Source: Pseudarthrobacter sulfonivorans
Lineage (GTDB): Bacteria; Actinomycetota; Actinomycetes; Actinomycetales; Micrococcaceae
DNA: 64,000 nt
Assembly (NCBI RefSeq): GCF_001484605.1
Contig: NZ_CP013747.1
Span: 4,774,001 to 4,838,000 of the forward strand
Direction of reading: 5' to 3'
The notes under the pieces are model-generated. The model saw only the letters and a program-made list of their open reading frames with translations. It searched no databases and was not told where the DNA came from. Made by a program: the position numbers and the translations under genes. Below are positions 38,867 through 43,432 of this stretch, one piece after another (the first letter of the stretch is position 1; each line of letters opens with the position of its first letter).

Positions 38867-39633
38867 CGGCTCCCACAGCCACCGCCGCCCAGGGAGCACC
38901 GGCCACGCTGCTGCGCCGTGTCCTGCTGCAGGGTAAGTACGAATCACTGACGATGCTCCGGAACGGCGAGCAGCTGATCCTTGCAGTCGTCCTGCCGCTT
39001 CTGGCGCTGGTGGGGCTCACCGTCACTCCTTTCCTGGACGGTTTCGGAGCCAGCCGCATCAATGTGGCCGTCCCCGGCATCCTGGCATTGTGCGCCATGT
39101 CCACGGCCTTCACCGGGCAGGGCATCGCCACCGGCTTTGACCGGCGGTACGGGGTTCTCCGGTTCCTGTCCACCACACCCCTGGGCCGCGAAGGCCTCAT
39201 CGCGGGTAAGGTGCTGGCCGTTCTTGCGGTGCTCTGCCTCCAGGTGGCAGTGGTGACGCTGGTGGCGCTTCCGTTGGGCTGGCAGCCGCCTGCCTCCGGC
39301 TGGCTCCCTGGGCTGTCACTGCTGGCCCTGGGCGCCGTGGCGTTCACCGCGCTGGGGCTCCTGGTGGCAGGCACAGTCCGGCCCGAGGCAACCCTGGCCA
39401 TCACCAATCTGCTGTGGATCCTGCTGGGCGCCCTGGGAGGGATAGTCATTCCCGCGGAACGGCTGCCCGCACTGGCGCAGGGAGCGGTCCACTACCTGCC
39501 CTCCGGCGCACTCGGCGAGGCCATGCGCGAAGCTTTCCTGCACGGCTCGTTGAACGGCGGCGCCGCGCTTATCCTGCTGCTCTGGACGGTTCTTGCCGGA
39601 GCAGCAGCCATCCGTTGGTTCAAGTGGAATTGA
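38863..39633 (+). CDS. ABC-2 type transporter permease
   Basis: 256-residue membrane protein with six hydrophobic segments, in the ABC-2 fold: cytoplasmic N-terminus (RVLLQGKYESLTMLRNGEQL), then helices starting at LILAVVLPLLALVGL, and a late reentrant region GGIVIPAERLPALAQGAVHYLPSGAL typical of DrrB-like permeases. The start ATG at 38863 overlaps the ATPase stop. The ctaA start lies 7 bases beyond its stop, so the three genes probably form one transcript. Confidence 0.9.
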   Translation: MTAPTATAAQGAPATLLRRVLLQGKYESLTMLRNGEQLILAVVLPLLALVGLTVTPFLDGFGASRINVAVPGILALCAMSTAFTGQGIATGFDRRYGVLRFLSTTPLGREGLIAGKVLAVLAVLCLQVAVVTLVALPLGWQPPASGWLPGLSLLALGAVAFTALGLLVAGTVRPEATLAITNLLWILLGALGGIVIPAERLPALAQGAVHYLPSGALGEAMREAFLHGSLNGGAALILLLWTVLAGAAAIRWFKWN

Positions 39634-39640
39634 GATATCC

Positions 39641-40585
39641 GTGAGCACGGCTTCACGCCTCCCCCAGATCGCCGGCCGCCTTATCGCGAGGCTGCCCCGA
39701 ACCGTGGACGCCAGCGTCCGCCGCCTCGCGGTGGCGTCCCTGGTTGGCCAGACGCTGCTAGTGGTGACCGGCGGCGCGGTGCGGCTGACTGCATCCGGCC
39801 TCGGCTGCCCCACCTGGCCGCGCTGCACCGAGACCTCTTTGGTCAACACTGCCGAAATGGGGATCCACGGCTTCATTGAGTTCGGCAACCGGCTCCTGAC
39901 GTTTGCACTGGCGGCAGTTGCGCTGGCCATGCTTGTGTACTTGTGGAACCTTCGCAAGGAGCGCCGGGACCTCTTCCTGCTGGCGCTGGGCCTGCTGGCC
40001 AGCATCCCGGCACAGGCGGTGATCGGTGGCATCACCGTGCTGACCAACCTCAATCCGTGGGTGGTGGGCCTGCATTTCCTCGTTTCCATGGCCCTCGTGG
40101 TGATTGCCACGCTGCTCGTCAACCGGGCCTACGGCAGGACGGGCCGCCATGCCAGCGTCCAGCTCCCCGCCTTGCCGGGCGTTATGCGTCCGGTGACTGC
40201 CGCCGTCGGGCTTTTCTCCGCCCTCGCCGTAATGCTCGGCGTAGTGGTGACCGGCTCCGGTCCCCACGCCGGTGACGCCGACGCGCCCCGCAACGGCCTC
40301 GACTGGGACCTGTTCTCCCACATCCATGCCGTTCCGGCGTACGTAATCACGGCCGGCACACTGTTCGCACTGGTGCTGGTCATTGTCGGCCGGATCCAGG
40401 GCCCGTTCCGCACGTCCGTCCTGTTGCTGCTTTCCGTGACCTTGCTGCAGGCCGTCATCGGCTTCACCCAGTACTACAACGGCATCCCCGCGTTGCTGGT
40501 GGGCGCCCACATGCTGGGGGCGGCGCTGCTGATGAGCGCGGCAACAAACTCCGCCGACCTCGCCCGCTCGAGCCCGGTCTCGTAG
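39641..40585 (+). CDS. ctaA: heme A synthase (COX15/CtaA)
   Basis: 314-residue membrane protein with about eight transmembrane helices that oxidises the methyl group of heme O to give heme A for cytochrome aa3. Conserved features include GGAVRLTASGLGCPTWPRC with its extracytoplasmic Cys pair region, a His in IHGFIEFGNR, HFLVSMALV, and the later helices with SHIHAVPAY and GAHMLGAALL supplying heme-ligand histidines. GTG 39641 was chosen 7 bases after the ABC permease stop. It supplies heme A downstream of ctaB (heme O), which lies on the other side of an IS element. Confidence 0.94.
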   Translation: MSTASRLPQIAGRLIARLPRTVDASVRRLAVASLVGQTLLVVTGGAVRLTASGLGCPTWPRCTETSLVNTAEMGIHGFIEFGNRLLTFALAAVALAMLVYLWNLRKERRDLFLLALGLLASIPAQAVIGGITVLTNLNPWVVGLHFLVSMALVVIATLLVNRAYGRTGRHASVQLPALPGVMRPVTAAVGLFSALAVMLGVVVTGSGPHAGDADAPRNGLDWDLFSHIHAVPAYVITAGTLFALVLVIVGRIQGPFRTSVLLLLSVTLLQAVIGFTQYYNGIPALLVGAHMLGAALLMSAATNSADLARSSPVS

Positions 40586-40610
40586 CCTCCACTGTTTTTG
40601 CCCAACAGGA

Positions 40611-40639
40611 GTGCCACGGTTCCCGACGAACCGTGGCAC
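40611..40639 (+). terminator. terminator hairpin after ctaA
   Basis: A perfect 11-bp stem (40611-40621 with 40629-40639) and 7-base loop lie 26 bases after the ctaA stop. The tail is not U-rich. Confidence 0.7.
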
Positions 40640-40651
40640 CCCGCATTTAAG

Positions 40652-40830
40652 GACCCTCTCTCACTTAATGCAGGAAGTGGGCAGACCCTCTCTCACTCCC
40701 TGCGTTGTTTCGCAGGATCTTCCCTTACCTCCTGGAGACAAAGAAGCGACCCTCCTTCACTGTTGGTGAGAGAGGGTCGCTAAGAAAGCTGCAGGTACTG
40801 ATAGAGGGTCGGCAAGAAACCCACATTAAG
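40652..40830. repeat. array of 32-bp-phased degenerate repeats, interrupted by an IS element
   Basis: The motif GACCCTCTCTCACT or a variant starts at 40652, 40684, 40716 (degenerate, 9 of 14) and 40748, exactly 32 bases apart. From 40767 the motif turns over: TGAGAGAGGGTCGC starts at 40767, TGATAGAGGGTCGG at 40799, and the next, TGAGAGAGCG, at 42447, which is 40831 once the IS element is removed, again 32 apart. The turn-over point forms a hairpin of 15-bp arms with two mismatches (40746-40780). The remaining part of each unit is less conserved but keeps AAGAAA and CATTAAG-like blocks. No ORF. Function unknown. Confidence 0.88.
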
Positions 40831-40879
40831 CCTGTATGCCCCTTGCGGGGCGCCCGTTCCGGGCTGAAAATGTGCCTGT

Positions 40880-41030
40880 GGTCGCCTGCCGACGCCGTAG
40901 TCACTATGGTTCTTTCAGTCCGTCATTAAGCCGGGCGCCGGGGATCACGCCGTGGGCCCTTCACTGTTTCCTTTTACCGAGAACGAGGACTAGATTCCGA
41001 TTTTTCCCGGTGATCCCCGCGGGCGGCCGC
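40880..41030 (+). ncRNA. candidate bridge RNA region of the IS110 element
   Basis: IS110 relatives transcribe a bridge RNA from the long non-coding end. Here that end contains TCACT (40901-40905) and CATTAAG (40924-40930), which together match the target CTCTCACTTAATG across its CT core. A 10-bp stem (40939-40948 with 41010-41019) encloses GGACTAG (40987-40993), identical to the right IS terminus 42440-42446. This is the layout expected of a target loop followed by a donor loop. The matches are short; exact ends and transcription are not known. Confidence 0.42.
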
Positions 41031-41075
41031 TTCGATAATCAGAAGTTCCGCTCTGTGAGGAGATGAGCAGTAGCC

Positions 41076-42344
41076 ATGCTGGCTGAAACCCAGGATGAGG
41101 ATCAGATCATTGCCAGAGTCGCCGCGATCGACATTGGCAAGGCCGAACTCGTGTGTTGTGTCCGGGTCCCCGCGGAAGGGGACCGGAGGAAACGGTTGCA
41201 GGAGGTGTCCACGCACTCCACGATGACGCGGTCGTTGATGGAGCTGGCCAACCATCTCGTGGACCTCCGGATCGAGCGGGTCGTGATGGAGGCGACTTCG
41301 GACTATTGGAAGCCGGTGTTTTACCTCCTGGAGGCGCACGGGCTCGAGCCGTGGCTGGTCAACGCCCGCGACGTGAAGCATCTGCCGGGCCGGCCGAAGA
41401 CGGACGTGCTCGATTCCGTGTGGCTGTGCAAGGTCGCCGAGCGGCAGATGCTGCGGCCCAGTTTCGTCCCGCCTGCCCCGATCCGCCGGCTGCGGGACCT
41501 GACCCGGTACCGCGCTGATCTGGTCGGAACCCGGACCGCGGAGAAGAACCGGGTCGAAAAACTCCTCGAGGACGCGTGCATCAAGCTCTCCGTCGTCGCT
41601 TCGGATATTTTCGGGGTGTCCGGGCGGGAAATGATGGCGGCGCTCATCGCCGGCGAACGGAACCCGAGTAGGCTCGCGCAGCTGGCCCGGACCCGGATGC
41701 GGGGGAAGATCAGCGAACTTGAGGAGGCCTTCACCGGCCAATTTGATGACCACCACGCCTTCCTGCTGGCCCGGATGCTGGCAAGGATCGACGGCATCGA
41801 TGCCGATATCGCCGCGGTCGATGAACAGATCGAGGGGCAGTTGGCCCCTTTCGCGGCGGCAGCGGAACGCCTGGATGAGATCCCGGGCATCGGCCCCGTC
41901 GCTGCTGCCGCTATTATCGCCGAAATCGGGGTAGACATGACCCGGTTCCCGACCGCGGGGCACCTGTGTTCCTGGGCGAAGTTCTCCCCGGGCATCAACT
42001 CCTCCGCGGGGAAGACCAAGGGAAACGGCTCGACCGGACACGGCAACCGCTATCTCGCCCGGGTCCTGGGCGAGGCCGCCGTCGGGGCCAGCAAAACTCA
42101 CACCTTTCTGGGCGAACGCCACCAGAGGATCGCGCGGCGGCGGGGCAAGAAACGCGCTATCGTCGCCACCGGACGTTCCATCCTCGTGATCATCTGGCAC
42201 CTGCTCCAAGACCCGGACGCCCGGTTCAACGACCTCGGCCCCGACTACTTCAGCCGCCGCACCGACCCCGAGAGCAGAAAACGAGGCCACATCCGCCAGC
42301 TCGAAGCCCTCGGCTACACCGTCACCCTCGCACCCGCAGCCTGA
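41076..42344 (+). CDS. IS110 family transposase (bridge-RNA-type recombinase)
   Basis: 422 residues with both IS110 domains. The N-terminal RuvC-like DEDD domain shows Asp19 (AAIDIGK), Glu72 (VVMEATSDYW), Asp110 and Asp113 (KTDVLDSVWL). The C-terminal Tnp_20 domain begins near LDEIPGIGPVAAAAIIAEIG and has the serine-bearing stretch SSAGKTKGNGSTGHGN (about 309-324) that supplies the catalytic Ser. A charged coiled region lies between. The frame is intact, so the element may be active. AGGAG is 13 bases before the ATG, a weak spacing. Confidence 0.95.
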   Translation: MLAETQDEDQIIARVAAIDIGKAELVCCVRVPAEGDRRKRLQEVSTHSTMTRSLMELANHLVDLRIERVVMEATSDYWKPVFYLLEAHGLEPWLVNARDVKHLPGRPKTDVLDSVWLCKVAERQMLRPSFVPPAPIRRLRDLTRYRADLVGTRTAEKNRVEKLLEDACIKLSVVASDIFGVSGREMMAALIAGERNPSRLAQLARTRMRGKISELEEAFTGQFDDHHAFLLARMLARIDGIDADIAAVDEQIEGQLAPFAAAAERLDEIPGIGPVAAAAIIAEIGVDMTRFPTAGHLCSWAKFSPGINSSAGKTKGNGSTGHGNRYLARVLGEAAVGASKTHTFLGERHQRIARRRGKKRAIVATGRSILVIIWHLLQDPDARFNDLGPDYFSRRTDPESRKRGHIRQLEALGYTVTLAPAA

Positions 42345-42472
42345 CCCTACCCCGTCTTCATACCAACACCAACACCCGCCAGACCACGACGGAGTGCACC
42401 ACAGTGCGCACCGACCGCGGTCACGTCCCCTCCATTTTCGGACTAGTGAGAGAGCGTTGGGTGGGGGTGCTG

Positions 42473-43432
42473 TTAACCGATGATCGCTGATCCGACGAAC
42501 GGATCCACGGCCAGTGCGATGAACAGCAGCGTCAGGTAACTGATGGAGCCGTGGAAGACCTTCATGGCGCGCTTGTCCGAGATGTCCTCGCGCTGCGCCC
42601 GGTTGTAGAGGGAGTGCGACTCGTAAAGGAACCATGCACCCGCCAACACTGCGGTGGCCGTGTAGACCCAGCCCGCGCCACCGGCGGGGACCAGCAGCAG
42701 CGAGCAGGCCACCATGGCCCAGGCGTAGAGGACCACCTGGACGGAAACCACCTTGGCGCCGGCAATTGCCCCCAGCATGGGCACGTTGGCGTTGCGGTAG
42801 TCCTCGCCGTAACGCATCGAAAGCGGCCAGTAGTGCGGCGGCGTCCAGAGGAAGATGACCATAAACAGGATGACGGCCGGCCATTCGACGGTGTTGGTCA
42901 CGGCGGCCCAGGCGATCAGCACCGGGAAGCAGCCCGCGGCTCCACCCCACACAATGTTCTGTGCGGTGCGGCGCTTGAGGATGATGGTGTAGATGACTAC
43001 ATAGAAGAAAATTGCGGCTAATCCGAGCCACGCGGCCAGCGGGTTGGCGCCGAACCAGAGAATAACAATGGCGGCTGCCCCGAGCAGCCAGGAGAACACC
43101 AGCGCCTCGCGCGGGGTCACCTCGCCGGTGACGAGCGGACGGTTCTCGGTCCGGTGCATCAGCTTGTCGATGTCGCGGTCAAGGTAGCAGTTGAAGGCGC
43201 CGGCACTGCCGGCAGCAAACGCGCCGCCGACCAGCGTGGCCAGGATCAGACCTATCGGCGGGAAACCGCGCTCGGCGTAGATCATGGTGGGCAGGGTGCT
43301 GACCAGAAGCAACTCAATGACACGCGGCTTAGTGAGGGCGAAATACGCCTTGGCCTTACGGGCGAACCCGGCTCCCCCTCTGGTGCGGGAAGCATTAAGC
43401 GGCGTATCTGTTGTGCTCACGGTGGCAGTCAC
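42473..43432 (-). CDS. ctaB: protoheme IX farnesyltransferase (heme O synthase)
   Basis: 319-residue UbiA-family membrane enzyme with about nine helices that adds a farnesyl group to heme B. The prenyl-diphosphate-binding Asp motif is [19 protein letters not shown], and the second conserved loop is [13 protein letters not shown]. It ends with a short loop and a helix. Divergent from tkt, and convergent with ctaA across the IS element. The stop is 27 bases inside the right flank of the IS, so the insertion left the gene intact. GTG start at 43432 or 43420. Confidence 0.95.

Follow-up and report, generated by a model that had tools for sequence, protein, structure and literature searches.

Predicted bridge RNA with guides flipped relative to the transposase gene in an IS110-type element of Pseudarthrobacter sulfonivorans

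The element and its insertion site

The window, a stretch of 64,000 nucleotides from Pseudarthrobacter sulfonivorans, carries on its + strand an IS110-type insertion sequence of 1616 bp (40831..42446), delimited by seven genome copies with the same ends and by a homologous empty site in a relative (G015). It is flanked on one side by a gene at 39593-40585 that we take, from reading its translation, to be heme A synthase-like, and on the other by a minus-strand gene (42473-43432) that, judged in the same way, is presumably protoheme farnesyltransferase-like. The element encodes a DEDD transposase/recombinase of 422 aa (41076..42344, + strand), recognised by Pfam and by alignment with IS621: the Pfam matches are DEDD_Tnp_IS110 (5.7e-25) and Transposase_20 (8.2e-18), the N-terminal DEDD RuvC-like domain and the C-terminal Tnp_20 domain of IS110 members are both present, and in a pairwise alignment, with residue numbers counted by hand, D19, E72, D110, D113 and S310 fall on D11, E60, D102, D105 and S241 of IS621. 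In IS621, the four acidic residues among these have the catalytic role. S241 of the IS621 recombinase is named in the available part of PMC11208158. Upstream of the gene lies a left end of 245 bases, as compared to 102 bases between the stop codon and the right end.

Counting the window copy, the genome holds seven near-identical full-length copies, and a diverged partial copy is additionally found twice. The dinucleotide AG stands at 40829-40830 and again at 42445-42446, so the element ends can be shifted by two bases either way. The left half of the target with this core, CATTAAG (40824..40830, + strand), is identical in 7/7 copies; the core with the right half, AGTGAGAGAGCGT (42445..42457, + strand), is identical in 6/7, with one base off in L006, and the right flanks start with TGAGAGAGCGT in six copies and TGAGACAGCGT in one. 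All seven copies sit at a CATTAAG/TGAGA site, the specific target with a short shared core that characterises IS110 elements. We write the target of the window element as CATTAAGTGA or, alternatively, as CATTAAGTGAGAGAGCGT. It is a short repeat: ACGCTCTCTCACTT has 32 exact occurrences in the genome, often at a spacing of 32 bp, and seven uninterrupted exact ACGCTCTCTCACTTAATG were found, one of them on a small second contig in the same surroundings as a chromosomal one. In G015, which aligns with the region at 69%, the homologous place holds an uninterrupted CGTTAAGTGAGAGAGCGT, and this empty site reads CGTTAAG-TGAGAGAGCGT. Together, the flanks of the copies and the empty site fit an insertion in which only the AG core is present at both ends.

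Several further features of the copies and their surroundings were observed. GAAAATG (40866..40872, + strand; positions checked on the sequence) is an inverted copy of CATTTTC (42433-42439), forming a 7-bp subterminal pair set back by 35 bases from the left core and by 5 from the right one; by eye, the base adjoining AAAAT/ATTTT often changes in step among relatives. Repeated gaccctctctcact/gtgagagagggt units occupy 40652-40821 and 42446-42457, are often 32 bp apart elsewhere in the genome, and form a REP-like repeat family in this genome and several relatives of the genus. One of the seven copies (L007, G000:C1:2446710-2448321) has one additional G in a G run of the transposase gene, and its protein match covers only residues 209-422. 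The diverged partial copies (L008 and L009; 86%) lie near either end of the chromosome contig and agree over the 500 bases compared, perhaps as an assembly overlap or a terminal repeat.

Guides and fold of the left end

An earlier note, made from the sequence alone, had read the left end as a candidate bridge RNA, and all the strings that it named were recovered at the positions given. CATTAAG (40924..40930, + strand), the putative 3' target guide, has the same sequence as the left flank plus core and would pair with its bottom strand; the longer CATTAAGCC at 40924-40932 equals the left junction at 40824-40832; and GGACTAG (40987..40993, + strand), the putative right donor guide, has the same sequence as the right terminus at 42440-42446. 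TCACT is present at 40901 as described and occurs also at 40961. The full target CTCTCACTTAATG had been claimed for the two target guides, which cover TCACTTAATG of it. Among 20000 first-order Markov copies of the 245-base left end, which keep its dinucleotide make-up, CATTAAG appeared in 0.5%, CATTAAGCC in 0.05%, GGACTAG in 0.8% and TCACT in 5.6%, and the set of CATTAAG, GGACTAG and TCACT appeared jointly in 0/20000.

To follow these matches through related elements, 80 loci were gathered by transposase similarity, and more from genomes. Five of 77 deduplicated rows were dropped as spurious (L002+, L013-, L076-, L097+ and one with guide TGACGGTGTAG), and the resulting covariation set holds 72 parsed copies in 43 guide clusters, with 33 distinct left 5-mers and 30 distinct guide 5-mers. 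Of the 80 loci, 57 have a kept row and 23 do not, being truncated, distant, outside the pattern or possibly duplicates; among these 23, L019 and L024 agree by eye, while L030, left out for want of flank, has a donor guide (GAACTAG) that differs from its right end (GAGTCAG) at 3/7 bases. Left boundaries were set by the distance to the GAAAAT motif and by AG followed by CC, TC or CG, with the guide left unused. The exception is Kibdelosporangium, which has two possible AG cores and for which the boundary was shifted 4 bases upstream by hand in the rows concerned; the shifted boundary agrees with the guide and is therefore biased in favour of a match. A conserved TGG after the 5' guide fixed the position of its core, and the final counts come from a relaxed parser that replaced earlier, stricter ones.

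Positions 1-5 of the 3' target guide equal the element's own left flank in 40, 40, 38, 40 and 36 of the 43 clusters, as compared to shuffled means of 26, 16, 14, 12 and 14, shuffle statistics in this set being inflated by the relatedness of the sequences. At least four of the five bases match in 39/43 clusters, against 9% of mismatched pairs. A guide-blind scan of RNA columns against the left flank in 39 clusters returned 40924-40928 as its five best columns (flank positions 5 to 1), pairing in 37-39 of 39 clusters when G-U is counted. The clusters that fail the 4-of-5 comparison are L074, L077, L086 and L087: the first three are distant (49-56% identity) and their ends may be misplaced, and L087 is not distant (83% identity).

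Among siblings with transposases 84-90% identical to that of the window, the matched bases and the flank change together. A sibling in genome G121 (transposase 88-89% identical) carries guide CTAAGTAG, and of six copies fetched from this genome four lie at TAAGTAG, one of them with the full CTAAGTAG, and two at CTAGTAG. The refuting outcome that the earlier note had named for sibling copies did not appear: copies with the same leader were found at the same target and not at unrelated ones, and other leader bases went with other, matching targets. The 14 Kibdelosporangium copies have the site GC(G/A)TTAG and the guide GCGTTAG, and their right flanks vary; since they share the left target half and not the right, the 5' guide contributes little there, and nearly all the work seems to be done by the 3' guide.

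The putative 5' target guide, AGTCACT (40899..40905, + strand), was assigned by covariation with the right flank in 31 clusters. At its positions 1-4, 80/124 cells are paired, a value that 0/2000 shuffles reach (mean 51.7); the signal is carried by positions 1-3, position 4 alone being weak (122/2000 shuffles), and positions 5-7 gave no right-flank pairing signal in the 31 clusters. In the window guide, CT and TCA pair with the core and right flank (AG-TGA), and the next two bases, G and A, are unpaired with flank G and A, so that it pairs with just three flank bases beyond the core. When RNA columns were scanned against the right flank, guide column 40901 came first (z 4.2), closely followed by the non-guide column 40973 (z 4.1).

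The donor guide equals the element's own right terminus in 36/38 clusters (shuffled mean 11.3, maximum 21/38), the failures being L074 and L077. Five guide types account for these matches: GGATTAG, GGACTAG, GGATCAG, GAGTTAG and AAGAGAG, the last a single, doubtful case (L086) whose match rests on the relaxed pattern and for which the stricter pattern read another guide. In the column scan against the right end, 40988-40991 pair in 34/34, and their ranks, with conserved columns as competitors, are 1, 11, 3 and 4. The earlier note had found no left donor guide, and our scan of RNA columns against the element's first 12 bases likewise gave nothing consistent beyond hairpin partners and a handshake-like base, leaving 3/4 guides that covary. 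The candidate GTGGGC (40952..40957, + strand), of which GGGC is conserved in most of 39 left ends, may be the left donor guide: it could pair with the left-end GCCTGT (core G and element bases 1-5) through three Watson-Crick and three G-U pairs, and it gave no covariation signal in the 39 left ends.

We used the left ends of 39/43 clusters, leaving out L074, L077, L086 and L056 (runs of N), for the consensus fold, the column scans and the handshake comparison. On the transposase strand RNAalifold reached -105.8 kcal/mol, where 20 column shuffles averaged -40.0, and 20/52 consensus pairs covary, that is, show two Watson-Crick types differing on both sides. The opposite strand gave -89.8 kcal/mol (shuffles -29.6). 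Because of the stronger fold and because G-U cells outnumber A-C cells 310 to 27 on the + strand, as compared to 141 and 154 on the - strand, we assign the RNA to the transposase strand. The minimum free energy fold of a single left end is no better than its shuffles (z -0.52), so the fold is visible only in the alignment; an Rfam search of 40500-42700 returned nothing at gathering scores.

The predicted bridge RNA spans 40838..41030 on the + strand, although its true 5' and 3' ends may differ. In the consensus, two 5' hairpins (40838-40851 and 40852-40864) precede an outer stem (40878-40889/41019-41030), after which come a target-binding and a donor-binding arm. The target-binding arm (40893..40937) consists of a stem (40893-40897/40932-40937), an apical stem (40907-40911/40918-40922) and, between them, an internal loop with both guides (canonical cells 191/195 and 194/195). 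The donor-binding arm (40939..41019) has the perfect 10-bp stem that had been noticed in the single sequence (40939-40948/41010-41019) and an apical stem (40965-40970/40981-40985); across 40940-40948/41010-41018, 323/341 cells are canonical and 7/9 pairs covary. All seven bases of each target guide and 4/7 of the donor guide are unpaired. Covariation folding of relatives' left ends, proposed in the earlier note as a check, thus recovers the two-loop target/donor layout suspected there, and the guide covariation bears it out.

Following the 3' target guide are two handshake-like bases, CC (40931..40932, + strand), that equal the element's first two bases. RNA position 40931 equals element base 1 in 39/39 left ends (27 C, 12 U), where the boundary rule allowed only C/T and shuffling leads one to expect 30.6/39 pairings with wobble counted; position 40932 equals element base 2 in 37/39. 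That these bases equal the element start explains the extra CC match in CATTAAGCC. According to the consulted part of PMC11208158, the handshake guides of IS621 are bases after the guides that pair with incoming DNA after strand exchange. On the donor side no such bases were seen in the 39 left ends, where the donor guide is followed by an AU that stays mostly constant as the right flank varies.

Guide geometry and known systems

Three IS621 copies from E. coli plasmids served as a control. Their 5' guide equals the left flank (ATCGGGCCT; one G-T wobble in 2/3 copies), the other 5' guide equals the right end (ACAGTATC), a 3'-side GCGTAG complements the right flank CTACG in two of the copies, with partial complementarity in the remaining one, and the transposase strand bears CT as the core, in agreement with the publication. 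The window element differs in each of these respects: in its loops the guides identical to the left flank and the right end take the 3' sides instead of the 5' sides, its transposase-strand core is AG, so that the earlier remark on a CT core opposite to the transposase held up, and its transposase has 422 aa as compared to 326 aa. As far as PMC11208160 and PMC11208158 were available, it resembles IS621 in a left-end RNA (predicted here) with the target loop before the donor loop, in guides that overlap on the core, in a handshake-like base after the target guide, in a recombinase of the DEDD + Ser kind and in short repeats as insertion sites.

In the part of PMC11187229 at hand, the seekRNA of the IS110-type element ISEc21 has its top-strand match 3' of its bottom-strand match, and IS1111 elements have the reverse order. 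The window element has the top-strand match 5' of the bottom-strand match, unlike ISEc21 and like the IS1111 seekRNAs of that paper (e.g. ISEc11); the order of the IS110 group (top-strand match 3', as in ISEc21 and IS621) is thus not the one found here. Its single 7-bp subterminal inverted pair, which may or may not be a counterpart, has the shortest length of the 7-17 bp given for the subterminal inverted repeats of IS1111 in the portion of PMC11208160 seen. By contrast, the RNA region is downstream of the transposase gene in almost all IS1111 elements, according to the same part of PMC11187229, and here guides and fold are upstream. From its sequence, then, the window element combines a predicted upstream RNA with the guide order of IS1111. 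Seen from the CT strand, the guides are arranged as in IS621; the inversion concerns the transposase-RNA cassette with respect to the two ends.

ISAar29, which its name leads us to assume is possibly an Arthrobacter element, bears on whether this arrangement is new. It is among six elements whose predicted guides are drawn in PMC11208160, of which a part was consulted; it may belong to the same subgroup as the window element, and the flip may already be visible in that prediction. The geometry is a variant undescribed in the portions of the literature consulted: no mention of a guide-order flip was found in the open literature searched, a body of text that lies outside preprints, most subscription journals and figures. 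The part of PMC12500396 seen notes ISKrh6 of Kocuria as an IS110 element with a seekRNA region and gives no target analysis for it.

Interpretation and distant lineages

We conclude, with a probability of roughly 0.92, that this IS110-type element carries in its left end the sequence of a predicted bridge RNA whose guides are flipped relative to the transposase gene. As an RNA of a kind already known, the putative bridge RNA is well supported by covariation: among the aligned relatives, covariation shows the fold and the matching of the predicted 3' target guide and right donor guide, and more weakly that of the 5' target guide. By analogy with IS621, we infer transcription, circle formation, catalysis, the handshake role and the left donor guide. 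The left end would be transcribed in the direction of the transposase gene; the second loop of the RNA would pair with the joined ends of the excised circle, its 3' guide GGACTAG reading the right end; strand exchange by the recombinase would take place at the AG/CT core common to both; and the bases that follow the target guide would pair with the incoming element end. Donor and target would be turned round relative to the transposase gene, with the CT-strand layout as in IS621.

Two readings would deny this RNA its role or its strand. The leader matches might be leftovers of a captured target, with the protein alone choosing where to insert, and the target is indeed a short repeat in its own right (32 exact ACGCTCTCTCACTT); against this, the matching positions belong to a conserved internal loop and change together with the flank among siblings with transposases 84-90% identical, and it is the far element end, not the target, that the donor guide matches, all of which makes this account extremely improbable. 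Hardly less improbable is a functional RNA from the opposite strand. It would accord with by-eye inspection, which found no promoter at the joined ends, and with the wobble counts at 3' guide positions 1-5, which at 6 vs 4 are small and nearly even, but the fold is stronger on the transposase strand (-105.8 vs -89.8), where alone G-U cells exceed A-C cells (310 vs 27, against 141 vs 154). Since the order of top- and bottom-strand matches is the same for either choice of strand, the contrast with ISEc21 would persist.

A different question is whether the flip sets the element apart. It could be the ordinary build of a long-transposase IS110 subgroup, perhaps present in the published ISAar29 prediction, of which the window element would be one more member only; we give this slightly less than even odds. 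It is favoured by the place of ISAar29 among the six elements drawn in PMC11208160 and by the recurrence of the donor match in 7/7 distant lineages, ISArsp3 included; it is opposed by the silence on a flip in the literature consulted and by PMC11187229, which, in the part seen, has one order for the tested IS110-type element and the reverse for IS1111. These seven lineages span Actinomycetota, Bacillota and Pseudomonadota: five are ~42-49% identical to the window's transposase, and Paenibacillus (42%) and Caballeronia (46%) were compared to ISArsp3. The left-target match recurs in 6/7, one of them weak (Alicyclobacillus, 3 identical and 1 wobble of 6), and a target guide was not found in Caballeronia. 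For these lineages donor and left-target guides were compared, and the loop side was read from motifs shared with the window element rather than from a fold. Because the guide was in view while boundaries were placed partly by eye, the matches are not independent tests.

We lean towards the view that the long-transposase IS110 lineage, with members in these three phyla, represents a third bridge-RNA architecture, in which the RNA machine is unchanged and the element ends have swapped donor roles. If true, this architecture would join an IS110-like upstream RNA to the IS1111 guide order, and the swap of left and right donor roles would imply at least one evolutionary inversion of the RNA-transposase cassette between the ends. 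As far as the sources were available, the guide rules known for bridge recombinases derive mostly from IS621, with a few relatives. Should this branch use a turned-round RNA, searches that expect a transposase-strand CT core or the IS621 loop sides would mislabel its guides. The branch would also offer actinobacterial recombinases whose left target half may be readable from the leader.

ISArsp3 of Arthrobacter sp. FB24 plasmid 2 (L154) shares with the window element the same donor and left-target matches, the AG core and the GAGCACG motif before the donor guide, and differs in its guides and in a transposase of 48% identity. Flanks of GTGAG-AGAGCG, similar to the target repeat of the window element in another register, border its chromosomal copies (L155-L157), so one repeat family may serve two IS110 elements whose guides differ. 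Downstream of its single transposase gene, L024 has two ATTTTCGGATTAG right-end copies spaced 92 bp apart, the second as if left behind.
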